A model generated the notes under the pieces. The model made no database searches. It was not told the origin of the DNA and worked only from the letters and a program-made list of their open reading frames with translations. From assembly GCA_003647275.1 (NCBI GenBank), contig QMMN01000023.1, forward strand, positions 1 through 35,405: a stretch of 35,405 bases of DNA. The letters are read 5' to 3'. The position numbers and the translations under genes were made by a program. Origin of the DNA: Deltaproteobacteria bacterium (GTDB lineage: Bacteria; Desulfobacterota; Desulfobacteria; Desulfobacterales; C00003060). Numbering within the stretch: position 1 is the stretch's first letter; every line of letters starts with the position of its first letter. This document shows positions 553 through 12,987 of the stretch, piece by piece.

Positions 553-3486
553 CTATTGGTGCGACGCCAGAATTGCTTTCAGTTTCTTTGGGTCTTGGCA
601 TACGTCAAATTTCCATTCTCCCATCTCTCCCCAGGCGGAGACCGCATCACACCATCGCTTTGCAGCTTCATGCTTCGCACGGGCCTGCTCGTCCTCAAAT
701 CCTTTTACTTCGAGTATAAGAGTGGTGCCATTTTTCAGCTTAACCAGGAAATCGGGCATGTAGGAATGTTGTACACCATTGAATTCATAATCAATGGCAA
801 AACCCAGATGATCATTGCGAACGTATGATTCTACTAAATTACTTTGTTCTAAATGGAAAGCCACAGAACGTTCCCAGGTCTTAGTGTCAAGAACTACGTG
901 GGAAACGTGACTCTTAATCGTTTGTTTTGACGGGCGAGAGGTTCTAAAAAGGACTTCCTGCGTTGACCCACGTGGCCGGAATCGCTCTAAGCGTGGCAGG
1001 AGTGGGGCTTCGCCACTTCCTTCATCCGGTCGAATCGCCGTACACAGTCGTTCAACGATAATTTGTACATATCTTTCGAGGCCAATTTCTCGAGAGTCAA
1101 TGCCATTATATTCAATACGACCCCCTTCAGATAAAGGTTTTGAATATTGTCTGACGATTTGTAACACCTGCGGAAAAAGCATTTGTCTTGCCTGCATCTT
1201 AAAATCATCTTTATTCAATAGTGCTGCGGTTATCCTTCTTGAAATCTCATAATGAATTTGCTGCGGGCGAACACTCTCATAAAACACTTTGCGCGTTTGA
1301 GTGACTGTTTCACCAGGACCTACCAATCCAGGAGCACCAATTTGATAACCAACTCTTGCCCTTACCACCGTTTCAGTCGGTTCGATATTGGGATCAATGC
1401 TCAATGGTTCGATACTCCCTATGTCGGCCTTGATTTTGCTTTTTATCTGATAAACAAACCCTTCAACTCTTGGAAACTCGATCTTCAAATGCTCCCGTTC
1501 TGGCAATGCCTGAATCAAGGTCGTCTTTGGTGGCGGAGGGGGAGGGCCAACCGGTTTTTTCTTTACCGGGATGACCTCAAAGGGAATGCCATAAACATCA
1601 ACATATTCGGGAACAGTAAAATCATCATATTGAGTGCGCCTTAGACCTCTCCCTATAACCTGTTCACACAATAATTGAGAGAGAAAAGCCCTGAGGCCCA
1701 GGATTTGTGTCACATTCTGAGCATCCCATCCTTCAGTGAGCATGGCAACGGAAACCACACAGCGAAGATCTTGACCTGGCTCACCGACTTTACCCACGGT
1801 ATTGATTTTCTTGCGCAAAGCTTCCGCAGCATCCTCTTTCGACTGCCCCTCGCTACGTTCTTCTGCTTCGCTGAGAAGTCTGCTATCGATACGAATTGTA
1901 TTCTCTACATCCTTGGTGTTTGAGAGCAACTCGGGGAGGACTCCGCCTGTTCCATAAACTCGCCTCTTCCTTTTCTTTCCTTTTTCATCTTTGTATTCTT
2001 CCCATTGCTCACCGCTGATATACTCATGGACCAGCTCTGCAATATCCGTGTTGTCGCAAACGATAATCATTGTGGGCGGCACTGGATGGTTTATGCTCTT
2101 AAATTCTTCAAACTTGGCTTTCCATTGCCCGGCCAACTGCTTTAAAGCACCATCGGCTTCACGGAGTATAGCCTCTGGCTTGGGTTTACGTCTACTGGTA
2201 GCCCTCTCCCTAGCTGACAATTTATCATTGATCCATTTCCAAAGAGCAAAATACTCTGGAACAGGACGGCCCGAATTGGTATCAACCGGGACCTGGGGAA
2301 TTTTTACAATGCCGCATTCAATAGCATCTACAAGGCCAAAATCGGAAACAATCCAGGGAAATGGGCTGCCTTCAGGGTAACCGCTCCCCTGGATATAGAA
2401 GGGGGTTGCTGAAAGATCTACAACAAGATTGATCCCTCTGGCTTTGTTTATCTTATCAAGGCCAGAGATCCACACAGTGGCTTCTTCCTTTGCCTTTTTT
2501 TCTTCTGCGGTGAGTTTGTTGGTTCCTGCACCATTTTCGTCAACCGGCGCCGGGCGGTAGGCATGATGGGCTTCGTCGTTTAAGACCAGGATATTCTTGG
2601 CACTACCCAGGTCTCGTAAGACACGATTAGAAAACGCCAAAGGACTTTCCTTACCGCGCTTGATAATGCTCCGTTTCCTACTATCGTCTATCTCTGCGAA
2701 CTGATGCCAGTTGGTGATCAGGAATTTCCCCTGTCCCAGATGTTCTTTCAAGGAAGCAGGGACCAGATCAAATTTGTCATAGTAGTTGCCTTTAGTGCCA
2801 GGGAGGAGGGCACGTTCTGGTTCAGCGTGACCCTTTTGTGTCTTCGGTGCCCCTCCCAGACGCTCTTTAATGGTAAGATTCGGACAAACCACCAATACCG
2901 CATCAGAGCACCATTTGGCCTGTCGGTTATGGACTTTGTTCAGGACGCTCCAAGCTATGATCATGGCCATTACCACGGTTTTTCCGCTTCCTGTGGCCAT
3001 TTTGAGACATTGGCGCCTCAGTCCCTTAAAGCCTTCTTCCAGAGGTTCATCCCAGGGAATCCTTATGCCATGTTGGCCGGGCTTGTGTATCTCATTTAGC
3101 CAGATAATGGTCTCTGCTGCCTCAAGCTGGCAGAAAAAAAGTTTTCTTTCCCGGTCTGGATAGGTCCAATGCCGCAGGAGCTGCCTGGTGATGTGACTGG
3201 AATTTTTATATCCGCCCTCACGCCACTTCTTGACCTGCGCACGGATCTTGTTGACCAGTTCCAGTTCAACCATCTCTTCATCGGCAAAAAGGCTTGTCTG
3301 GGCGGCATCAGCCCGTCTTCGACTGCGGAAGTAGTAATGGGCCGGTCTCCTACCAGGAACTTTTGCTGGTTGCCCTGTAAAAACATCGTAAATCCAATAT
3401 TGCGTCGGCTCTTCAAAAGGAGAATTGATAATTGGTTCGTCTACAGCAAGATGCCGAGAGCCTCTAAAATCATTCTTATTATTCAA
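553..3486 (-). CDS. type III-like restriction endonuclease, helicase + PD-(D/E)xK nuclease
   Basis: A 977-residue SF2 helicase-nuclease. The Walker A motif ATGSGKT is at about residues 164-170, DEAH at about 304-307, SAT at about 359-361, and a motif VI-like QVIGRGLRR follows the LTEGWD segment. The C-terminus carries PDF...LEVKG at about 911-928, matching a PD-(D/E)xK nuclease active site. It most resembles the type III-like restriction enzymes that I recall as the BPTD_3080 family. The start is TTG at 3486, overlapping the end of the methyltransferase gene by 8 bases and preceded by a GAAGGTGG stretch. No in-frame ATG precedes the conserved INSPFEEPTQYW segment, so TTG is the likely start. 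The overlap implies translational coupling with the methyltransferase, and the pair forms the core of a restriction-modification system. Confidence 0.88.
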   Translation of the reverse strand: MNNKNDFRGSRHLAVDEPIINSPFEEPTQYWIYDVFTGQPAKVPGRRPAHYYFRSRRRADAAQTSLFADEEMVELELVNKIRAQVKKWREGGYKNSSHITRQLLRHWTYPDRERKLFFCQLEAAETIIWLNEIHKPGQHGIRIPWDEPLEEGFKGLRRQCLKMATGSGKTVVMAMIIAWSVLNKVHNRQAKWCSDAVLVVCPNLTIKERLGGAPKTQKGHAEPERALLPGTKGNYYDKFDLVPASLKEHLGQGKFLITNWHQFAEIDDSRKRSIIKRGKESPLAFSNRVLRDLGSAKNILVLNDEAHHAYRPAPVDENGAGTNKLTAEEKKAKEEATVWISGLDKINKARGINLVVDLSATPFYIQGSGYPEGSPFPWIVSDFGLVDAIECGIVKIPQVPVDTNSGRPVPEYFALWKWINDKLSARERATSRRKPKPEAILREADGALKQLAGQWKAKFEEFKSINHPVPPTMIIVCDNTDIAELVHEYISGEQWEEYKDEKGKKRKRRVYGTGGVLPELLSNTKDVENTIRIDSRLLSEAEERSEGQSKEDAAEALRKKINTVGKVGEPGQDLRCVVSVAMLTEGWDAQNVTQILGLRAFLSQLLCEQVIGRGLRRTQYDDFTVPEYVDVYGIPFEVIPVKKKPVGPPPPPPKTTLIQALPEREHLKIEFPRVEGFVYQIKSKIKADIGSIEPLSIDPNIEPTETVVRARVGYQIGAPGLVGPGETVTQTRKVFYESVRPQQIHYEISRRITAALLNKDDFKMQARQMLFPQVLQIVRQYSKPLSEGGRIEYNGIDSREIGLERYVQIIVERLCTAIRPDEGSGEAPLLPRLERFRPRGSTQEVLFRTSRPSKQTIKSHVSHVVLDTKTWERSVAFHLEQSNLVESYVRNDHLGFAIDYEFNGVQHSYMPDFLVKLKNGTTLILEVKGFEDEQARAKHEAAKRWCDAVSAWGEMGEWKFDVCQDPKKLKAILASHQ

Positions 3487-6181
3487 GGCCCACCACCTTC
3501 ATGACTTCGTTGCCACGCTGATCAATGACCTTTACCGCCGCCCTCTTATGTTTGCCGGGCCGAAAAGGCAGAGAGGCATGACCTGTGAGCATGTCAAAAC
3601 GATCTTCATCCAGGATACCCTTTAATGCCCGCTCTAATTTTCTCCAGTCCTTTTTATTGGGGAAAAAGGCCTGGACAATGCAGAATGTCCGTTTGTCATA
3701 ATCAGTATCTACAAACCACGCTGCCACCCGGCCTGCACTTTCAGAGTGCACAACGCCACTGACAGGGTCATACACATCGACCCCAAGGAGTTTTATTGTG
3801 AACTCTCCATCTCTCTCAACCAGTTCTATGTCCGGCTCACCAAAAACGGTAAAGAGCTGACTTGAGGCTGTGGTTTTTAGAAGGTCTCCCCCTTCTGCAT
3901 CCTTAAGGATCACATCGGGCCGAATATGAGAGGCATGGGCCTTGATCTTGGGGTGTGGGTTGGCACTAATGGCCGCCTGTGCCTCAGGATCAAAGGCAAA
4001 GCCGCAAAAGATGACCTCGTCATAACCGCCCATGTAAGCCTCCCTCAAACCGTCCTCCACCTGCATGAGAGAGACCGGACCGTGCAGCGGGCCAAATGAA
4101 ACCGCATATCGCTTGTTTTCAGCTTCTCCTTCAGCATGAAGGACGCCACCTGTTCGGGCTGTCAGGACATCAAAGTTCAATTTCTTGTTATCAGGGAAAG
4201 TGACCCCATCTTTCTGTAAAAGACTGATGAGGGTTGGAATGTGGTTTTCTCCGGTAGGTTGAGTTTCGGTAGAATCAAATGAGTCGATGGATTCCGGTTC
4301 TCCACCTATTGGAGTTTCTACCTCGTATACCGGAGGAGGAATGGCCTCAACGGTGAACGGGCCAGAAACCCTTACAATTTTTCGATCAACTTCTGGCTGA
4401 TCATAGAGGATTTCCTGGGGCGCATCCTCTGCAATGATCTTGTCAACGGCGTCCTGTTTTTCTTGCTTCAACCGGCGGAATTCTTCAAATCGCTCCTTAG
4501 CTTTTTTAGACCATTTTTTATCAGGGTTGAAAGGGACTTCCCATTCCTTAAAAGATGTTTTAGCTGATTTGTTTAATTTCTTGAGAGCATCAAGGATTAA
4601 AGGATTATATTTTTCAGCCACAGTATCAATGAGTGTATTCTGTGCAATGGATTTCAGGGTAATATGAGGGACCGTTTTGTATTTGAAACCGTAACTGGGA
4701 TTTTGTCCGTTGCCTTCGTCATCAATCTTGTAATAAGGATAGGTGGCGGTGAGAAGCCTTTGTCGTGCCAAGGCCAATGCGACCCGACTCGTGTCGCAGG
4801 TAATCCAGCGTCGGCCCCACTGCTCGGCCACATAGGCCGTGGTGCCGGAACCGCACGTAGGATCAAAGACCAGATCCCCCGGGTCGGTGGTCATGAGGAT
4901 GCAGCGTTCAACCACCTTGCGCGATGTCTGTACTACGTAAATCAAGTCAGTCGAACCATGAGTATCATCCCACAGGTTATGTAATGGTTGGACTGGGAAG
5001 TCGTCATGAAATGTCACGTAGCAAGGTAAATCTCCGGGTGCTATGATCCGTTCAGCCTCTATCAACCTTCGCATTCCATTTAGATTAGTTCTCCAGCTCT
5101 TAAGACCGCACTTGAACAGAGTCCCCTTGAACGCAAAATCAAACCTGCAGGTGGGCGTGTAGCCGGAAGAAGCCAAAGCACTGGCGAAGAAAACCTTCCA
5201 CCCCGAAGACAGCCTATCTGGTTCACGTCGTTCTTCTCGTGTCATCTTGCGCCGGCAACCGTCGGGCGATTGGACCCAAGTGTATCCTGTATCTTGGCCA
5301 ACCGGTTTCTTTAGATGAAGCTGCCTGTACTTTAGTAATTCTCGATTTTTGGCATACCACAGCAAGTAGTCTGATATTCCTGCCAGACCCGAAGAGCCCA
5401 GAGGCAAGGTCTTTTTAAATGTTATCAGGGCCACAAAATTCTCCGGTCCAAACACCTCATCCATAACTGCTCTGACCAAGTGCAAGTTTTCATCAGAAAT
5501 TTGCACAAAAATTGATCCTGATTCATTCAAAAGATCCTTACATACCCTCAAACGGTCCCGCATATAGGTCAAATACGAATGAATCCCCAATTTCCAGGTA
5601 TCCCTATAGGCTTTGATCATCTCGGGTTCACGGGTTAGATATTCGTCACCATCTTTCACGTCCCGGCGGTCAATCCTTGCCTGAAAGTTGCTGGCGTATT
5701 TCACCCCGTAAGGTGGGTCCATGTAAATCATCTGAACCTTGCCGGCCATCATCTCCCGCTCGATCAGGGAATTTGCCACCAAAAGGGAGTCTCCCAGAAT
5801 CAGTCGGTTTGTCCAGTCCACATCATGCTGGTAAAATTGCACCGCCTGATGAAGAGGCAATTGAGGATCTGCGAACAGTTCCATTTGTTTGTCTTCTCGC
5901 TGAACAGCCTTTATGATTGCCTGTGCACTGACCCGCTCGTGTACATGTAGCGAAACGGTTTCGACTTCGATCCCCGATGCATCCTCCACTTCAATGGACT
6001 TGAGCCCGGGCTTACCAGCCCAAACTAATTGGGGCGAAAGATGCGGGTCATAAGCATAGCGCTTCATTTTCGGTTCAGCCACTTTGGGTTCATAACTCAC
6101 CATCCCGATCGGCGGGATGTTTTTCCGCTTCTCGTCATGGCGGTAGTCCCGGACTCTTGAATTCTTTTTTTTCTTGGCCAT
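3479..6181 (-). CDS. site-specific DNA methyltransferase, type III Mod-like (N6-adenine, beta class)
   Basis: A 900-residue amino-methyltransferase. Catalytic motif IV DPPY (about residues 155-158) precedes SAM-binding motif I FDPTCGSGTTAY (about 439-450), the order of beta-class enzymes such as type III Mod subunits. DPPY suggests N6-adenine methylation. The region between the motifs probably holds the target-recognition part, and about 440 residues follow motif I, much longer than a minimal enzyme. A TTG four codons upstream at 6193 is possible, but TGAGGAAA sits immediately before ATG 6181, so I start there (MAKKKKN). The N-terminus is very lysine-rich. It should protect host sites from the overlapping nuclease. 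Confidence 0.9.
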   Translation of the reverse strand: MAKKKKNSRVRDYRHDEKRKNIPPIGMVSYEPKVAEPKMKRYAYDPHLSPQLVWAGKPGLKSIEVEDASGIEVETVSLHVHERVSAQAIIKAVQREDKQMELFADPQLPLHQAVQFYQHDVDWTNRLILGDSLLVANSLIEREMMAGKVQMIYMDPPYGVKYASNFQARIDRRDVKDGDEYLTREPEMIKAYRDTWKLGIHSYLTYMRDRLRVCKDLLNESGSIFVQISDENLHLVRAVMDEVFGPENFVALITFKKTLPLGSSGLAGISDYLLWYAKNRELLKYRQLHLKKPVGQDTGYTWVQSPDGCRRKMTREERREPDRLSSGWKVFFASALASSGYTPTCRFDFAFKGTLFKCGLKSWRTNLNGMRRLIEAERIIAPGDLPCYVTFHDDFPVQPLHNLWDDTHGSTDLIYVVQTSRKVVERCILMTTDPGDLVFDPTCGSGTTAYVAEQWGRRWITCDTSRVALALARQRLLTATYPYYKIDDEGNGQNPSYGFKYKTVPHITLKSIAQNTLIDTVAEKYNPLILDALKKLNKSAKTSFKEWEVPFNPDKKWSKKAKERFEEFRRLKQEKQDAVDKIIAEDAPQEILYDQPEVDRKIVRVSGPFTVEAIPPPVYEVETPIGGEPESIDSFDSTETQPTGENHIPTLISLLQKDGVTFPDNKKLNFDVLTARTGGVLHAEGEAENKRYAVSFGPLHGPVSLMQVEDGLREAYMGGYDEVIFCGFAFDPEAQAAISANPHPKIKAHASHIRPDVILKDAEGGDLLKTTASSQLFTVFGEPDIELVERDGEFTIKLLGVDVYDPVSGVVHSESAGRVAAWFVDTDYDKRTFCIVQAFFPNKKDWRKLERALKGILDEDRFDMLTGHASLPFRPGKHKRAAVKVIDQRGNEVMKVVGLE

Positions 6182-6224
6182 TGGTTTCCTCAAAGTTTAA
6201 AATTGACTGCTAGTATCAAACCAT

Positions 6225-7376
6225 TTAACCGAGGCAATTACAAAATAATCCCTTTATATTAAGACCAAGTGCCTTCCATATTTGAGGCTGCTCTTTGCAC
6301 AAAGCGATATCGACATCAGCTCCACATTTTCTTATTGCTTCTATGATTGTTCTGAACATCTTAATCCTTTGGCCTTTAGGATACCTGAGCTTTCCCCCTT
6401 CTCTGACCAAACTTTTGTTAATACGTAACAGAGGAGAATCAGGAAATCGCGAACTGATATGGTTAGCGAGGCCATTGGAAGGCCGATATTCACCTATCGT
6501 TATCCTTGTAGGCTGAACAAATTGAAATATCTTATCAACCAGTGATATGTAGTCCTTCTCCCAGGTAGAATAGAAAATGACGGGATCTATTCTTAAACGT
6601 ACTTCGTAACCCGCCTTCTGGACTCTCGCCGCAGCCGCTAAACGAGATTCAGGAGAGGCGGTCCTATGTTCTAACTGTTGAAAAACCTTCTCTGTGTTTA
6701 CACTAAACGAAATAATTGATTGCCCTCCGTGCTCAAGCGCAAGAATGTCATCCACACAATCACTTTTGGTCAGAAATAGCAATCGTGTACGTGGGGCATG
6801 TTCAGGCATGAATGCAATAATCTGTTTTGCAAAACCAGTAATGTAGTCCACAGCCAGAGGGTCACCGAGTTCACCAAGATTTAAAACTCTCAAGGATTTT
6901 GGGATGCTTGATTTATCAAATTTCTCGATTTCATCATACATCTTCTCGTAATTTATAAAATGGGTGGAAACAGGCTGCGTTCGGAAGGTCAAATATAGAT
7001 AGCAGTACTCGCACCAGAAATTACAATTATTGTAAGCTGTCAATTTATAGAATTTTGCACACCGTCCAATGGGATGCTGGAACTGTTCAATAAAAGGACT
7101 GATTCTATCGCGCAATAAAAGAACACTCCTTTCAGCTCGCAGCTTTTCTAACCCCCTCTCTCCATTAATACCTGGTATCTTGTCTACCCAAATCAAAGGT
7201 AACCCGGCACGGTTGGCTATCTTTTTAGCCCTAATTTTATTACTCATACTCCGGGTCGCCCATAATTCACTCACGAGGGGCTTTTGTATTTCTGCTTGAG
7301 AGTATGCCAGGCCTTCTTCCTGAATTCGAGTTCCGACTTCCACTCCTTCAGCCGGATACTCCTTTAGAATCGCCAT
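6225..7376 (-). CDS. radical SAM protein, spore-photoproduct-lyase-like
   Basis: 383 residues with a canonical radical SAM CxxxCxxC at C118, C122 and C125 (CNFWCEYCYLY). The flanking sequence, including KLTAYNNCNFWCEYC and the downstream NLGELGD and SVNTE segments, resembles the SPL-like branch (spore photoproduct lyase family). Three more cysteines cluster at the C-terminus (C360 in LCKE, then C379 and C381 in FCNC) and could hold an auxiliary cluster or close the active site. The ATG overlaps the tcmP stop by one base (TAATG), a coupling arrangement; AGGA lies about 10 bases upstream. Substrate unknown. SPL enzymes act on DNA thymine lesions, so a nucleic-acid substrate is a reasonable inference. 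The coding sequence looks more AT-rich than the restriction genes downstream. Confidence 0.8.
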   Translation of the reverse strand: MAILKEYPAEGVEVGTRIQEEGLAYSQAEIQKPLVSELWATRSMSNKIRAKKIANRAGLPLIWVDKIPGINGERGLEKLRAERSVLLLRDRISPFIEQFQHPIGRCAKFYKLTAYNNCNFWCEYCYLYLTFRTQPVSTHFINYEKMYDEIEKFDKSSIPKSLRVLNLGELGDPLAVDYITGFAKQIIAFMPEHAPRTRLLFLTKSDCVDDILALEHGGQSIISFSVNTEKVFQQLEHRTASPESRLAAAARVQKAGYEVRLRIDPVIFYSTWEKDYISLVDKIFQFVQPTRITIGEYRPSNGLANHISSRFPDSPLLRINKSLVREGGKLRYPKGQRIKMFRTIIEAIRKCGADVDIALCKEQPQIWKALGLNIKGLFCNCLG

Positions 7377-8203
7377 TATAAGTATTTCCTGTATTTATTA
7401 AAAATATCATTAACGATTTTCTTACCATTTTCATTGTGTGACGCAAAGAACAAGAAGAACAAAGGGCCACCTTTACTGTTTCTCATAAGCACTGGCTCAG
7501 GAACGAATTTAAATCCCGCATTTTCTTGTAATCTCTTCTTCCGAAACCACTTTCCGAGTTCAATATTCCCTCCAATTTTCATTTGGTAAGTTTGACCAAA
7601 AAGGTCTTTTTGCTCCCGGTATAATATGTTCTGCCATTCCTCTGTTCCACAAAATTTATTCATTCGCTCTATTTGCTCCTGATCAGCTGAAAGTAGATCC
7701 TTATGCAACACATTTCGATTCATATCCATCAGAGGAAAGTTCAAAAAGATCTCAGTCGTTCTTAGTTTGGCTGCATCCATGATGGTTTCCCAGTGGAGGT
7801 GCAAACCATAAGGGTCTAAAATGCATAGTGCTCTCTTTTTGGTTTCATATGTGAGAAATGGTAATATGTTTTTTCTCAATACTTCATTACTATCCCCTTT
7901 ATATATCCTTATGTCTGGAATGTCACGAGTCAGCATATCAAGAGCTTCGGTTTTTTCTTTGTCGATATCAATATAGTGGTACTCTGTAAAAGGGTTTTTA
8001 ATCTCAAGGGCGTTCAATGGGGAGCCCATAATGAATTCCCCTGTTCGTCTTGAGATGTGGACTCCGGCCCCAGCAAAAGCATCGATATAGGCATATCCCT
8101 GACACCACGCTTGCTTTCTCATTATCGTTGTGAAAGCGTTTGCATATTCTCTTATAATGTCCAACTTGATCTCAGACCAAATACCTATCTTATCCAATTT
8201 CAT
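7376..8203 (-). CDS. tcmP: TcmP-like protein (three-Cys-motif partner), Rossmann methyltransferase-like
   Basis: 275 residues matching the three-Cys-motif partner family as I recall it. A Rossmann-like motif YIDAFAGAG lies at about residues 39-47, then GSPLNAL (60-66), an acidic YIDID (77-81) where SAM enzymes bind ribose, and ILDPYG (128-133) where methyltransferases carry their catalytic loop. It is probably a SAM-dependent methyltransferase or a derived relative; activity is not established. The family is named for co-occurrence with a cysteine-motif, radical-SAM-type partner, which is exactly the next gene here. An AAAGGGG ribosome site precedes ATG 8203. It is the first gene of the five-gene operon, and its stop overlaps the start of the radical SAM gene. 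Confidence 0.75.
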   Translation of the reverse strand: MKLDKIGIWSEIKLDIIREYANAFTTIMRKQAWCQGYAYIDAFAGAGVHISRRTGEFIMGSPLNALEIKNPFTEYHYIDIDKEKTEALDMLTRDIPDIRIYKGDSNEVLRKNILPFLTYETKKRALCILDPYGLHLHWETIMDAAKLRTTEIFLNFPLMDMNRNVLHKDLLSADQEQIERMNKFCGTEEWQNILYREQKDLFGQTYQMKIGGNIELGKWFRKKRLQENAGFKFVPEPVLMRNSKGGPLFFLFFASHNENGKKIVNDIFNKYRKYL

Positions 8204-8547
8204 GGCTGCCCCTTTGATAGCCGCTATTTGGAAAGATGAACAATCTCAAGCTTGATCATTTCGTAACTCTTGATCCCGCATCAAGGAAAATAGTCTAAGA
8301 AAGTAACTTTTGGCGGTCAGATCGTTCAGTTTGATAGAGTTCTCTCTAAATCGATATTCTCGAAAAATAAAAGGAGCAGCCCCTGACATTGGACAAATTG
8401 CCCCTTTTGGAAACGTTGGGTGCGTCGGTCCTTTGACCGGTTTCGAGTTCCGGGTTTCAGGTTGAAAGTTCTCATTATTCACTGGTTAGTTCAAGGTGCC
8501 GTGCTTCGAGAATTCTTAACTCACCACACAGGCACTGGGAACCCGGC
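8204..8547. promoter_or_regulatory. intergenic region, probable promoter of the defence operon
   Basis: No convincing gene. The heptamer GATCAAG occurs twice on the minus strand just upstream of tcmP, around 8250-8275, and the second copy lies in a small palindrome (TCAAGCTTGA), so an operator is possible. I could not assign -35 and -10 boxes with confidence. A 78-codon frame on the minus strand (8246-8482) has low-complexity, non-protein-like sequence and was not called. Confidence 0.3.
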
Positions 8548-8895
8548 TTATTTGACCCCGTATTTGGCTTTGCCTTCAGCAACAGCTATTTGTTTCGGGC
8601 GCCTCTTGCGTTGAATCGCTACATGAATCGTTGCCCCAAGGGCCTCTGCGACTCGGCGTAGCATGCTCAAGGAATGGCCCTCATAAGATGGTGATTCAAG
8701 GCGGCTGATCTGCTGTTGAGATGTCCCCACACGTTGGGCCAGCTCTTTCTGAGACAATCCAGACTCCTTGCGCAAAGCAGCTAATTGCAGGGCAACGTCC
8801 CAAGCCTCGCCAGCCTTTTTGAAGCGTGCCGCAAAATCGGCATCCTTCAACTGTTCTTCAAGGTATATGTCAAAATTTGTTCGCTGTTTCATCAT
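8548..8895 (-). CDS. XRE-family antitoxin-like HTH protein (HigA type), orphan
   Basis: 115 residues. An N-terminal helical segment (TNFDIYLEEQLKDADFAARF) is followed by an XRE helix-turn-helix (LRKESGLSQKELAQRVGTSQQ...ISRLE) and a basic C-terminus, the layout of HigA-like antitoxins encoded after a HigB/RelE toxin. I chose ATG 8895 (MMKQRTNF) because it overlaps the stop codon of a toxin remnant (CCATGATGA) and has GAGGAA upstream. An ATG 18 bases earlier lies within the toxin remnant. The partner toxin is decayed, so this may now act alone as a repressor. Confidence 0.82.
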   Translation of the reverse strand: MMKQRTNFDIYLEEQLKDADFAARFKKAGEAWDVALQLAALRKESGLSQKELAQRVGTSQQQISRLESPSYEGHSLSMLRRVAEALGATIHVAIQRKRRPKQIAVAEGKAKYGVK

Positions 8896-9035
8896 GGATT
8901 CCTCGCCAGCCAATCACGTTTTCTATCCAAAGCAATTCTGCGATCTCGCGCAGCAATCTTTGTGGCCTTACTTCGAATCCCATGCACAGCAATGATCCTC
9001 CGCCCTTTCACAAAAAAGTCAGGTGTTTTTAGACC
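8892..9035 (-). pseudogene. remnant of RelE/HigB-like (Gp49-type) toxin
   Basis: Directly upstream of the antitoxin, a 47-codon open stretch reads GLKTPDFFVKGRRIIAVHGI then RSKATKIAARDRRIALDRKR and ends DWLARNP-stop. The order strand, GRRI strand, basic helix resembles the C-terminus of RelE/HigB-superfamily toxins. An in-frame TAA lies at 9036-9038, and only nine more codons (MIVSLEIAL) precede it back to an ATG, so the N-terminal half is missing. The stop at 8892-8894 overlaps the antitoxin ATG, which is the usual higBA arrangement. I infer a toxin inactivated by truncation. Confidence 0.6.
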
Positions 9036-9067
9036 TTAAAGTGCTATTTCCAAAGACACAATCATCA

Positions 9068-9660
9068 TTGTAAGGCGTGTCCCCAACTTTTGCTCTTTAG
9101 CCCGGAAAACATAAAAACCCCGCCTCTCTTTTTGAGAAACAGGGTCACAGGATTCAGTGCATGGCACCCCCTACAATTGAGGTTCATGGATCATACAGCA
9201 ATCTTTCCAAAAATATCAGGAACGATTGTTTTGTCAAGGATTTCCAGGTCTAACGGCTTGCTGATGCCACAAACAAGTCGTCCCTGACGACCAGGTGTAA
9301 CAAAAGGTTACAATTCAGCGAAAAAACAGCCCGAAAAGGTATGTAGATATTACACAGTCGACAGAACGGAAGGGAGACCGTCTTCGCCTGCCCCGTAGGG
9401 AAGCATGACCGTACCGGGGTGTGTCCGTGTAATAATCTTATTTCTCCGTGGCTTTAGCAGACTGATTCAGGGTCTCGTTCGGTTTTTTTATACCATAGAA
9501 CTGGGAGAGATCCGGTCACACTTGGAAAAATCTTTTGAAAAATTTGTCAGATTAACAATGGTTAATCCATCTGAAAAAACATGAATCTCATTGATAAATC
9601 CTTAATGTGCGTTTAAGTGTTCAATATTTTATACTTTATCGGAGGCTTATTATGACCGGG
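9068..9660. other. gene-poor stretch
   Basis: About 600 bases with no gene I can support apart from the structured element at 9346-9437. On the minus strand a 37-codon frame (about 9304-9191) reads LDLEILDKTIVPDIFGKIAV before a stop. It has protein-like composition but no start or recognisable family, and could be a gene fossil. A T-run at 9483-9489 follows the structured element on the plus strand. Confidence 0.4.
9346..9437 (+). ncRNA. candidate structured RNA (three-way junction)
   Basis: Bases 9346-9355 pair with 9427-9437 to form a 10-bp closing stem with one bulged A (ATTACAC with GTGTAAT at its core). Inside are two smaller helices: ACGG/CCGT around 9367-9382, and CCCCG/CGGGG around 9391-9419 with extra TA/TA pairing. 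A T-run at 9483-9489 could end a plus-strand transcript. It matches none of the riboswitch, SRP or 6S patterns I compared from memory. Strand is uncertain because a DNA palindrome reads similarly on both. Its nearest genes are the decayed WYL gene downstream and the toxin remnant upstream. Confidence 0.35.
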
Positions 9661-9662
9661 AC

Positions 9663-9871
9663 TGATCCGTTGAAAAAATAGTGGAAGATGCGGAAGGGGG
9701 GCTGATGTGGCTATATCCAATGAAATCAAGTTCTAGATCATGAGCTGGGGACCACATGCCCTGGTGCTTGAGCCGGAATCTCTGAGGGATGAGATCAGGG
9801 CAGAGGCGGAGATGATGCTGGGGAGATATGAGAAAGAGATGGAAAAGGAGGATAGACCGGTGAAGGCCTGA
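9663..9871 (+). pseudogene. remnant of WYL-domain transcriptional regulator
   Basis: The tail of a WYL-domain regulator can be read across two frames. EKIVEDAEGGLMW begins at 9672. After a +1/-1 shift near 9700 the text continues DVAISNEIKF, then an in-frame TAG (9734-9736), then IMSWGPHALVLEPESLRDEI and a helical end stopping at 9871. The phrase SWGPHALVLEPESL is characteristic of WYL protein C-termini. With at least one frameshift and one stop, and no upstream HTH part, it is not functional. WYL regulators commonly sit in defence islands, consistent with the AbiE pair just downstream. Confidence 0.68.
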
Positions 9872-9908
9872 ACAAAAACAAAACCTCGTCAAGAAAACGC
9901 GAAATCAT

Positions 9909-10054
9909 AACTTGACATTTTTCTGCACTACCCCTAAACTTTTTGGGGGTATTGCGTTATGTCATCAAGTATTTGCTTGCAATAAACTCGTCAACTTGAT
10001 ATTATTCGTCAATACACTTAAATAATTTAAGGGTATTGATCCTTGTCATCAAGT
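9909..10054 (+). promoter_or_regulatory. AbiE promoter and operator repeats
   Basis: Two sigma70-like promoters are visible upstream of the antitoxin: TTGACA (9912-9917), 17 bases, TAAACT (9935-9940); and TTGATA (9996-10001), 17 bases, TAAATA (10019-10024). The decamer GTCATCAAGT occurs exactly at 9961-9970 and 10045-10054, and its near inverse AACTTGA occurs at 9909 and 9994. A TACCCC/GGGGTA inverted repeat lies at 9929-9951. AbiEi antitoxins are known to repress their own promoter through repeats, so these are good operator candidates. Confidence 0.5.
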
Positions 10055-10066
10055 TTGAGGATAGAC

Positions 10067-10873
10067 ATGAAGCTACAAGATTTCTTTGCAACACACCCGG
10101 TCTTCACCTATGGGGAATTTGTAGAATTCCTCTCCATTCAGGGTTCCCGCAATGTTAAAACACGGGAGTCAATCCTGAGCCATTATACAAAAACGGGGCG
10201 CCTCCTTCGGGTCCGACGTGGGCTCTATCTCTCCGTGCCCCAGGGACTCACTCCTGAAAAATGCCCTGTTGACCCCTATCTCCTTGCATCAAGAATGGCC
10301 CCCGATTCGGTGCTTGCCTATCACACCGCCCTTGAGCTTCACGGGAAGGCCTATTCCGTATACGAGGAGTTTGTTTATTTGACCCGATCAAGAAGCCGTC
10401 CACTGAATTTCCGGGGGCAGAAATATCGTGGTGTAGCTTTCCCCAAGAAGTTAAAAGACAAAGACCAGGAGTCATTTGGCGTGGTATCGCTTGAAAGGTC
10501 TGGACTGGACGTTCGGGTCACCAGCCTGGAACGTACCCTTGTGGATGTACTGGACCGTCCTGCCCTGGGAGGAACATGGGAAGAAATCTGGAGGTCACTG
10601 GAGTTGGTCGAGTTTTTTGACCTTGATAAGGTCGTTGAATACACCATACATCTGGAAAACGCTACAACCGTGGCCAAGGTGGGGTTTTTCCTGGAGCAAC
10701 ATAAGGACACTCTGATGCCCAATGAAGGTCACCTTAATCGTCTCCGCTCGCTCATACCGGTGCAACCTCACTATATGGTCCGCAATGGACGGAAGGCAGG
10801 CCGTTTTGTTAGAGGGTGGAATCTGGTGGTGCCTCCCGAAATAGTTGAGAGACGATGGGAGGAGCAGCATTGA
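10067..10873 (+). CDS. abiEi: AbiEi-like antitoxin of type IV toxin-antitoxin system
   Basis: 268 residues. The N-terminal winged-helix part (FFATHPVFTYGEFVEFL...RRGLYLSVP) and the LAYHTALELHG, YLTRSR and SLERTLVDVLDRP segments are typical of AbiEi antitoxins. These carry a DNA-binding domain and counteract the AbiEii toxin without direct complex formation. The computed frame could begin at TTG 10043, but GAGGA lies 8 bases before ATG 10067, giving MKLQDFFATHP, which I prefer. The gene overlaps the toxin start by four bases (TTGA). Repeats in the upstream region probably bind this protein for autoregulation. Confidence 0.88.
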   Translation: MKLQDFFATHPVFTYGEFVEFLSIQGSRNVKTRESILSHYTKTGRLLRVRRGLYLSVPQGLTPEKCPVDPYLLASRMAPDSVLAYHTALELHGKAYSVYEEFVYLTRSRSRPLNFRGQKYRGVAFPKKLKDKDQESFGVVSLERSGLDVRVTSLERTLVDVLDRPALGGTWEEIWRSLELVEFFDLDKVVEYTIHLENATTVAKVGFFLEQHKDTLMPNEGHLNRLRSLIPVQPHYMVRNGRKAGRFVRGWNLVVPPEIVERRWEEQH

Positions 10874-11841
10874 AACTCTCACGGGAAAAAATCATCGCTG
10901 AAGCTGCATCGACCGGATTTCGGCCCGAGGTGTTTGAAAAGGTCGCCCAACTATTCTCCTTACTTCAAAGCATATGGAGCCATCCTTTTCTCAAGAACCG
11001 GTTCGTCCTCAAAGGCGGTACAGCTTTGAACCTCTTTATTTTTGATCTGCCCCGCCTCTCTGTAGATATAGACCTGAATTATATTGGGTCCCCTGACAAG
11101 GAAACCATGCTGGCAGAAAGGCCGAAGATGGATGATGCGATCAGGGCTGTCTGTCAGCGTGAGGGATTTATGGTCCGGCAGTCTCCCACGGAGCATGCCG
11201 GCGGTAAATGGTTGCTTAGATATGAAAGTGCTCTCGGGCAGGGCGGTAACCTTACTGTTGATCTCAACTTCATGTTTCGTATCCCTTTGTGGCCGATCAT
11301 TCCATGTGATTCGCGCTTAGTGGGCTCTTACATGGCTGAGAGAATTCCCGTGCTCGATGTTCATGAGATAGCAGCCGGTAAGCTATGCGCCTTGCTTTCA
11401 AGACAGGCGGGAAGAGATATTTTTGACGCGCACCAACTGCTCACCCAAAAGATCCTCAAAAGAGATCGCCTCCGTCTTGCTTTTGTGGTCTACGGTGCCA
11501 TGAATCGGAAGGACTGGCGTACCGTATCGGAAAACGACATCGGCTATAGTGCAAATGAGCTCATGAATGAATTGGTGCCTGTTCTGCGCGCGGATAAAAC
11601 CGATAATATCCGTGACCCTGAAATATGGGCCTCCCGTCTCGTTGAAGAGTGCTGCCAGGCTATTGCCATCGTGTTACCATTCACAGAAGCGGAGCGTGAA
11701 TTTCTTGACCGAATCTTGGACCGTGGAGAGATAGAGCCCTCATTGATCACCACCGATGAAGAGATGGCGAACAAGATCCGGAATCATCCTGGCTTGCAAT
11801 GGAAGGCCTTGAATGTGAGGGAGTTCAAGGGAATACAATAG
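10870..11841 (+). CDS. abiEii: AbiEii/AbiGii-family nucleotidyltransferase toxin
   Basis: 323 residues from TTG 10870. The nucleotidyltransferase signature is intact: GGTALNLF at about residues 49-56 followed by SVDIDLNY (about 64-71), supplying the GG/S and DxD metal-binding residues. A basic and helical C-terminal half follows. AbiEii toxins transfer nucleotides to targets (tRNA in studied relatives) and cause growth arrest in phage-infected cells. GGGAGGAG sits just before TTG 10870, and TTG overlaps the antitoxin TGA (TTGA), so I prefer it to ATG 10855, which would overlap the ribosome site. Both genes look intact, so this is probably a working abortive-infection pair. Confidence 0.88.
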   Translation: MKLSREKIIAEAASTGFRPEVFEKVAQLFSLLQSIWSHPFLKNRFVLKGGTALNLFIFDLPRLSVDIDLNYIGSPDKETMLAERPKMDDAIRAVCQREGFMVRQSPTEHAGGKWLLRYESALGQGGNLTVDLNFMFRIPLWPIIPCDSRLVGSYMAERIPVLDVHEIAAGKLCALLSRQAGRDIFDAHQLLTQKILKRDRLRLAFVVYGAMNRKDWRTVSENDIGYSANELMNELVPVLRADKTDNIRDPEIWASRLVEECCQAIAIVLPFTEAEREFLDRILDRGEIEPSLITTDEEMANKIRNHPGLQWKALNVREFKGIQ

Positions 11842-11930
11842 AACAGAGCATTACTATCGTGAAGAGTAGGTTGATAAAGGTTGCGATTCGTGAGATAAAC
11901 GAGCCGGTGATAGGGCCACGACAAGGTCAC

Positions 11931-11969
11931 AAAAAAATAAAAAAGGACTTAGCCGAACGGGCTAAGCCC
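11931..11969 (-). terminator. intrinsic terminator of tRNA-Arg
   Basis: Reading leftwards, GGGCTTAGCC, a CGTTC loop and GGCTAAGTCC form a 10-bp stem with one G-U pair, followed by TTTTTTATTTTTTT. It lies 11 bases after the tRNA 3' end and fits a rho-independent terminator. Confidence 0.85.
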
Positions 11970-11979
11970 CTGAAATGAC

Positions 11980-12055
11980 TGGTGCGCCCAGGGTGATTCG
12001 AACACCCGACCTACGGATTCGTAGTCCGGCGCTCTATCCACTGAGCTATGGGCGC
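11980..12055 (-). tRNA. tRNA-Arg(ACG)
   Basis: A 76-base cloverleaf on the minus strand. The acceptor GCGCCCA pairs with TGGGCGC, the D arm is GCTC/GAGC, the anticodon loop is CTACGAA giving anticodon ACG, the T arm is GGGTG/CACCC with TTCGAAT, and the 3' CCA is encoded. The outermost anticodon-stem pair appears to be a C/T mismatch, otherwise all stems are complementary. ACG anticodons need A34 converted to inosine, and tadA lies immediately upstream in the opposite direction. Confidence 0.96.
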
Positions 12056-12072
12056 ATTGATGAATCAGATTC

Positions 12073-12101
12073 TCTATAGTTTTTTTGGGCTATACTGTCA
12101 A
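12073..12101 (-). promoter_or_regulatory. promoter of tRNA-Arg
   Basis: On the minus strand TTGACA (12101-12096), a 17-base spacer and TATAGA (12078-12073) make a near-consensus sigma70 promoter ending 18 bases before the mature tRNA 5' end. On the plus strand TATACT at 12091-12096 could serve as a -10 box for tadA. Confidence 0.75.
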
Positions 12102-12129
12102 GGTAATTACAAAGCCAGGGTGCAGAACA

Positions 12130-12621
12130 TTGACGGATGACACTTTTATGCATGAAGCCTTGTTGGAAGCACAACAGGCCGTGCGGGAAGACGAGGTGCC
12201 CGTAGGAGCCGTGCTGGTTGCCGGGGACGGCACCGTGCTGGCCAGGGCCCACAACCAGACCATTGCACGGTGTGATCCTACGGCCCATGCGGAGATCCTG
12301 GCCTTGCGAGCGGCATCCCGGGCCGTTGGAAATTATCGGCTTCTAAATACCACACTCTACGTCACCATTGAGCCCTGCATCATGTGTATGGGTGCGCTGC
12401 TGCAAGCACGGATTGCCAGGATCGTGTTTGGGGCCAAGGACCCTAAATGGGGCGGGGCCGGATCCTGTTATAATCTAGCAGCCGATACCGGTCTGAATCA
12501 TACGATTGATGTTCAAGGAGGCGTGCTTGAAAATGACTGCAGGCAATTGATCCAGGCCTTCTTTCGAGATAAGCGCCTGCGGATCAAGAGAGACAAACAG
12601 CACACCGATATCCCCGAATGA
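12130..12621 (+). CDS. tadA: tRNA-specific adenosine deaminase TadA
   Basis: 163 residues from TTG 12130. The cytidine/deoxycytidylate-deaminase zinc site is complete: H53-A-E55 and P82-C83-I-M-C86, with EVPVGAVLV upstream and YRLLNTTLYVTIEPC around the second motif. TadA deaminates A34 of tRNA-Arg(ACG) to inosine so that it can read CGU, CGC and CGA. TTG 12130 gives MTDDTFMHEALLEA, an N-terminus of the usual length; ATG 12148 would drop six residues and the frame also extends back to TTG 12085 with no ribosome site. It is divergent from the tRNA-Arg(ACG) gene, its expected substrate. Confidence 0.94.
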   Translation: MTDDTFMHEALLEAQQAVREDEVPVGAVLVAGDGTVLARAHNQTIARCDPTAHAEILALRAASRAVGNYRLLNTTLYVTIEPCIMCMGALLQARIARIVFGAKDPKWGGAGSCYNLAADTGLNHTIDVQGGVLENDCRQLIQAFFRDKRLRIKRDKQHTDIPE

Positions 12622-12632
12622 CAACAGGCTTT

Positions 12633-12785
12633 AGCCCGAACATTTCATAAAAAATGTCGATGGTTTGTTAGCAAAACCTTAGTGACAAATTGTTACCGCA
12701 AAAGGTTTAAGCAAAATCATCCTAACAATGCCAAGCTGTTATCTTTATGAAACGCTGTCGACATTTTTTATGAAATGTTCGGGCT
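12633..12785. repeat. 28-bp perfect inverted repeat between convergent genes
   Basis: Bases 12633-12660 are the exact reverse complement of 12758-12785, enclosing about 97 bases. The arms begin AGCCCGAACATTTCATAA. TTTGTTAG near 12665 and CTAACAA near 12722 form a second nested pairing. It fills the gap between tadA and the oppositely oriented DUF6485 gene, whose TAG stop lies in the outer end of the right arm. It could be a MITE-like element or a bidirectional transcription stop. Confidence 0.85.
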
Positions 12786-12987
12786 AGACCTTTCCTGATT
12801 GGACGAGCCGTGAAAAATGTTCAAAGGATCGGTCATAGGTGGCTTCAGCCTGATCCGGGAAACAACACCCTGGCAACTCGCGCATCCGCAGGTGGTACGT
12901 TAAACATTCACAGCAGATCCCCTTGCGCTCACAGGGTTCATACGTGCAGTTACACCTTGTCAGGTTCTGCTCCTTACGACAATCCAT
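12784..12987 (-). CDS. small cysteine-rich DUF6485-type protein
   Basis: 67 residues with nine cysteines, arranged as C3, C12/C14, C19, C25/C26/C28 and C41/C42 (CNCTYEPCERKGICCECL then CCFP), suggesting a metal or iron-sulfur binding protein. The pattern and the ELPGCCFP and TYDRSFEHF segments match small proteins I recall as DUF6485, common in anaerobes; function unknown. A strong GAGGAGGG site precedes the ATG. The stop overlaps the right arm of the inverted repeat at 12633-12785. Confidence 0.8.
   Translation of the reverse strand: MDCRKEQNLTRCNCTYEPCERKGICCECLTYHLRMRELPGCCFPDQAEATYDRSFEHFSRLVQSGKV

Follow-up and report, generated by a model that had tools for sequence, protein, structure and literature searches.

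Divergent tadA and tRNA-Arg(ACG) genes in Desulfobacterales: a conserved gene order that probably reflects inheritance

The divergent placement of tadA, the gene for tRNA adenosine(34) deaminase, and a tRNA-Arg gene is an old, lineage-specific layout and not the product of chance, because it occurs in 49 of 62 tadA-bearing genomes from the order that contains our window (Desulfobacterales) and in none of 105 from elsewhere in the phylum. The window—the whole stretch of 35,405 nucleotides analyzed here—carries one such pair, with tRNA-Arg(ACG) as the partner. Inherited synteny, in which tRNA and tadA each have a promoter of their own, is the best reading and a probable one, and joint control of the two genes is not required by anything in the DNA. 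The original prediction, that enzyme and substrate genes so placed might be regulated together, is partly supported overall: the conservation was borne out, and the regulatory inference is unsupported by the anatomy of the locus.

The Window Locus

TadA proteins carry zinc deaminase motifs of the forms HAE and PCxxC. Both are present, as TAHAEI and EPCIMC, in the translation of the window's tadA (12130–12621, plus strand; 163 aa), where they align to PDB entry 1z3a. The protein belongs to NCBIfam equivalog NF008113 (whole-protein score 188.6 bits, cut-off 150) and matches solved TadA structures (PDB 1z3a, E 5e-43). The gene is single in the window genome, where two other matches are weak. Its favored start is TTG at 12130, with a candidate ribosome-binding site, AGGG (12117–12120, plus strand), nine bases upstream; an earlier TTG at 12085 is a possible alternative.

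The sole tRNA called in the window is tRNA-Arg(ACG), on which ARAGORN and Rfam RF00005 agree. It folds as a tRNA with an ACG anticodon and lies on the minus strand, at 11980–12055 with an encoded CCA according to ARAGORN and at 11983–12055 according to Rfam (score 69.6 bits, gathering threshold 29). Among 28 distinct tRNAs of the window genome (30 of 39 tRNA places read), it alone has A34. The tRNA promoter that had been predicted between the two genes is present (12073–12101, minus strand); it is sigma-70-like and reads toward the tRNA: TTGACA at 12101–12096, a 17-nt spacer, and TATAGA at 12078–12073, the −10 box ending 17 nt before the gene. A strict scan of 11850–12700 that demands T as the sixth base of the −10 box reports no promoter, because TATAGA lacks the usual final T; the pattern TTGACA-N16-18-TA recurs in relatives. 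An intrinsic terminator hairpin follows the gene (11943–11971, minus strand, read from 11971 to 11943).

That the two genes diverge, as predicted, stands; the gap between them, given as 75 bases, comes to 74 when counted from the 5′ end of the tRNA to TTG 12130. It contains a candidate −10 element for tadA (TATACT, 12091–12096, plus strand), proposed from its letters, which has one base in common with the tRNA −35 box, is without a good −35 box of its own, and is poorly conserved among congeners.

Beyond the 3′ end of the tRNA, the window carries a defence-like gene cluster (553–11841) comprising a BPTD_3080-family restriction enzyme with a type III-like methyltransferase, an HTH protein, an AbiEi/AbiEii pair, and a TcmP-like protein (PADLOC PDC-M41A) with a spore-photolyase-like radical SAM protein. 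Insertion of an island at the 3′ end of the tRNA was considered and dropped: the final 27 bases of the tRNA have a single occurrence in the window, where no second attachment copy was found.

Gene Order in the Genus, Order, and Phylum

How widespread is the arrangement among relatives? The genus sample comprised 22 genomes. A tadA match reached E 1e-30 or better in 16 of them, and in 14 of these 16 a divergent tRNA-Arg(ACG) stands beside tadA. In one exception (L004) the contig ends about 200 bp upstream of tadA. In the other (L011/G020; L304, G020:C100) the first 42 bases of tRNA-Arg(ACG) are in place and are followed by unrelated DNA, the break falling about 190 bp from a contig end; either the gene is disrupted or the assembly is faulty here.

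The order sample comprised 76 genomes; tadA was matched in 62 of them (E 1e-25 or better), and all 62 loci were read. A divergent tRNA-Arg(ACG) was found at 46, a divergent tRNA-Arg(UCG) at 3, and a same-strand tRNA-Arg(ACG) at 1; the remaining 12 were without a pair, 2 of them having less than 700 bp of upstream sequence. Carriers of the divergent ACG pair belong to dozens of families, and by our own estimate random placement would yield the pair in about one genome in ten thousand. A class sample drew genomes of the window's order only (46 with tadA, 24 already in the order set); 11 of its 22 new loci were read, giving 6 divergent pairs, 1 same-strand pair, and 4 loci with none.

The phylum sample (118 genomes, 109 with tadA) left 105 loci once 4 genomes from the window's order were excluded. 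No locus was divergent, 8 had a same-strand tRNA-Arg(ACG) just upstream of tadA, and 97 were without it, 6 of these having less than 700 bp of upstream sequence. tRNA-Ser genes follow tadA at 70 of the 105 loci outside the order vs. 1 of 62 within it, and one locus outside (L177) shows the whole cluster on a single strand: tRNA-Ser, tRNA-Ser, tRNA-Arg, tadA, tRNA-Ser, tRNA-Ser. In the literature, as covered by titles and the beginnings of abstracts and sparsely for subscription journals, we found no report of tadA/tRNA-Arg gene order.

Loss and Exchange of the Partner tRNA

Where is tRNA-Arg(ACG) when it is not beside tadA? We searched 19 genomes for it: the 12 without a pair, the 3 in which UCG stands at tadA, and 4 more. 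Ten of the 12 carry tRNA-Arg(ACG) elsewhere, and the search yielded no such gene in G086 or G089. The relocated genes have TTGACA upstream in 7 of the 9 (of 10) for which upstream DNA was read.

tRNA-Arg(UCG), which has no A34 for TadA to edit, adjoins tRNA-His(GUG) in many of the searched genomes, that of the window included (L301). The three genomes with tRNA-Arg(UCG) at tadA (G060, G032, and G092) represent two families. In G060 (L282/L297) and G092 (L046/L287) the two arginine tRNAs have swapped places, with UCG at tadA and ACG beside tRNA-His. G032, of the same genus as G092, likewise has UCG at tadA (L293); tRNA-Arg(ACG) was not found on a search of its assembly, which is 83% complete, and the family's ACG copy at tRNA-His was seen in G092 alone. 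The ACG and UCG genes of G060 are identical except at 2 of 77 bases, and their 3′ flanks are similar, which fits and suggests an exchange by gene conversion or duplication; the corresponding tRNA bodies of G092 differ more. Misassembly of draft genomes may also produce exchanged tRNAs. The identical stretches between the two G060 genes are only 25 nt on the 5′ side and 42 nt on the 3′ side, and the likeness extends to the 3′ flanks; in the second family, UCG stands at tadA in two genomes.

The identity of the partner is not strictly kept with tadA, given the 3 of 62 loci with UCG and the ACG gene found elsewhere in 10 of 12 pairless genomes. Because tadA persists beside a tRNA without A34, the gene does not depend on a neighboring substrate gene for its maintenance. 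A tadA tree built by a quick method implies at least 16 changes of the pair, a rough figure, as good support is confined to 9 of the tree's 91 inner branches.

Gap Length, Promoters, and the Case for Shared Control

Could enzyme and substrate be controlled together? The proposal is that, within a short gap, overlapping promoters let RNA polymerase at one hinder or help transcription from the other, matching enzyme to substrate supply. The overlap of the candidate tadA −10 with the tRNA −35 box in the 74-bp gap speaks for it, as do the pair's retention in 14 of the 16 tadA-bearing genus genomes and its conservation, with ACG, in 46 of 62 across the order. The order-wide picture speaks against it. 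Measured between the tRNA 5′ end and tadA, the gap spans 59 to 874 bp with a median of 131 (49 loci; tadA starts are estimates extrapolated from alignment). In Desulfobotulus alkaliphilus (L061) it is about 73 bp, and at L027 it exceeds 800 bp and contains a long reading frame. Within the window's genus, extra DNA lies between promoter and tRNA at L010, L015, and L016 (the last with an inverted repeat) and between promoter and tadA at L006, L014, and L017, so that the promoter has stayed close to tadA at the former loci and close to the tRNA at the latter. A constrained short gap with a shared element is not what these insertions on either side of the promoter, and this range of lengths, describe. 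The replacement of the partner by tRNA-Arg(UCG) in two families and the many losses of the pair (the changes, at least 16, being counted on a weakly resolved tree) also stand against shared control, which we regard as unlikely.

The promoter itself is not peculiar to the pair. Of the 47 distinct tRNA-Arg(ACG) genes in the order set, 40 have TTGACA-N16-18-TA in the 60 nt upstream; over the same distance the counts are 52 of 58 for tRNA-Pro(CGG) and 2 of 30 for tRNA-Leu(UAG). A promoter of this type does not set the tadA pair apart, because at least one other single tRNA gene, tRNA-Pro(CGG), has it so often. The predicted shared regulation consequently finds no footing in the promoter, usual at tRNA-Pro(CGG) as well (52/58 vs. 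40/47), nor in a roughly fifteen-fold variable gap, a promoter that goes with either gene, and a partner tRNA that has been moved or exchanged.

In several families a motif like AAGTTATCA precedes TTGACA upstream of tRNA-Arg(ACG); in the window's genus the corresponding letters are TTGCAATCACC. A shared operator upstream of the −35 box (AAGTTATCA/TTGCAATCACC) was considered and dropped, as the motif persists at the tadA place where the tRNA is UCG (L046). Because it is kept there even with that tRNA, it looks like a piece of the promoter at the tadA place.

Neighboring Genes and Control Pairs

The pair is part of a larger order-wide block, in which tRNA-Arg(ACG) diverges from tadA and tadA is followed on its own strand by purA and then by tRNA-Pro(CGG). 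The purA gene, which from its sequence we take to encode adenylosuccinate synthetase, lies directly downstream of tadA at 54 of the 62 order loci (absent at 7, cut off at 1), so that tadA-purA is kept about as well as tadA/tRNA-Arg (54/62 vs. 49/62). tRNA-Pro(CGG) comes next at 46 of 80 named loci, is absent at 22, and lies beyond the covered sequence at 12. The window's genus differs: there purA is kept in 6 of 16 genomes and the tRNA beside tadA in 14. The tadA-purA adjacency (e.g., L074, L076, and L127) also brings a gene for A-to-I editing together with that of the enzyme catalyzing the first step from IMP to AMP. In the window, the place just downstream of tadA that purA takes in most of the order holds a short element (12632–12786) with inverted ends of about 29 bp. 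At least 106 bases of it recur at 93 to 98% identity in eight further places of the genome, and it looks like a multicopy MITE.

Is such conservation exceptional? Three control pairs were scored on the same 76 order genomes, at the best 30 loci each; their protein genes, named from sequence, are presumably tig, glnS, and purD. The same-strand pair of tig (trigger factor) and tRNA-Leu(UAG) is kept at 30 of its best 30 loci. glnS and tRNA-Gln(CUG) are convergent at 7 of their best 30, with 2 more in another layout, and purD/tRNA-Asn is kept at 1 of 30; the last is a weak control, the window genome's purD being a distinct subfamily with at least 75% identity in 5 genomes and 36 to 45% in the rest. 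On the same footing, tadA/tRNA-Arg(ACG) is kept at 26 of its best 30 loci, or 27 counting UCG. The tadA pair is well conserved, yet within reach of an unrelated pair; its conservation is not exceptional, because tig/tRNA-Leu(UAG) scores 30/30 vs. 26/30. The glnS-like gene tail to tail with tRNA-Gln(CUG), seen at those 7 of the best 30 loci (L374 on contig C25 of the window's own genome, L376, L378, L395, L397, L401, and L402), is itself another enzyme-substrate tRNA pair.

These comparisons bear on a further reading, in which selection holds enzyme and substrate genes close, in any orientation, on grounds such as co-transfer or equal dosage. The occurrence of two orientations favors it—49 divergent and 1 same-strand of 62 in the order, and 8 of 105 same-strand outside. 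Against it, tRNA-Ser genes, which have no A34, also cluster with tadA outside the order (70/105), so a place next to tadA is not reserved for the tRNA that TadA edits; and tig/tRNA-Leu is conserved even better. We consider selection for closeness improbable. The same low standing applies to the composite claim that selection has repeatedly held tadA by its sole substrate gene, in either orientation, and that overlapping promoters in those members of the order with a short gap make tRNA-Arg(ACG) and TadA synthesis mutually exclusive, with editing capacity following tRNA supply; we would be surprised if it held. Chance adjacency in the window genome alone has nothing in its favor and is refuted by the survey: the prediction took absence from all relatives as the sign of chance, and 49 of 62 order genomes are divergent (46 with ACG), as are 14 of 16 in the genus, which makes it vanishingly improbable.

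Discussion

What history would leave such a pattern? Under inherited synteny, other members of the phylum would reflect an ancestral same-strand cluster of tRNA-Ser, tRNA-Arg, tadA, and tRNA-Ser, which plausibly underwent a single change at the order's base; the divergent arrangement would have arisen once near that base and persisted as nothing disrupted it. By analogy, TadA would act here as in Escherichia coli, deaminating A34 of tRNA-Arg(ACG) to inosine after both are made. Inherited order draws its support from the spread of the pair together with its losses, the variable gap, equally stable unrelated neighbors, and the exchange of partners in two families. Three observations count against it: within the genus the pair outlasts purA (14/16 vs. 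6/16); same-strand tRNA-Arg(ACG)-tadA occurs at 8 of 105 loci outside the order, far above random placement; and the promoters could overlap in the window and in some congeners.

The order offers a natural data set on whether the gene for an RNA-editing enzyme must adjoin that of its substrate, and the genomes with exchanged partners serve as natural controls, arguing that it need not. Coregulation should not be read from conservation by itself, because the tig/tRNA-Leu adjacency is kept at 30 of its best 30 loci without an enzyme-substrate link. Both pairs keep a tRNA gene by one protein gene order-wide; the tadA pair joins enzyme and substrate and is divergent, whereas the tig pair is same-strand.

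As described in parts of two earlier studies, bacterial TadA edits A34 of tRNA-Arg(ACG) to I34 (PMC11472039; PMC3711424). The window encodes the same enzyme family and the same substrate anticodon, and only one A34 tRNA was seen among the 28 distinct tRNAs read in its genome. The examined passages of both papers do not discuss tadA/tRNA gene order; those of PMC11472039 name a SPy_0208-tadA operon, with no tRNA neighbor. A study of eukaryotes describes tRNA anticodon shifts detected via synteny (PMC3923123). As in those shifts, a conserved tRNA place carries another anticodon in some relatives, here UCG for ACG; unlike them, the case is bacterial, and in G060 and G092 ACG occupies the tRNA-His/tRNA-Arg(UCG) place, making the exchange reciprocal.
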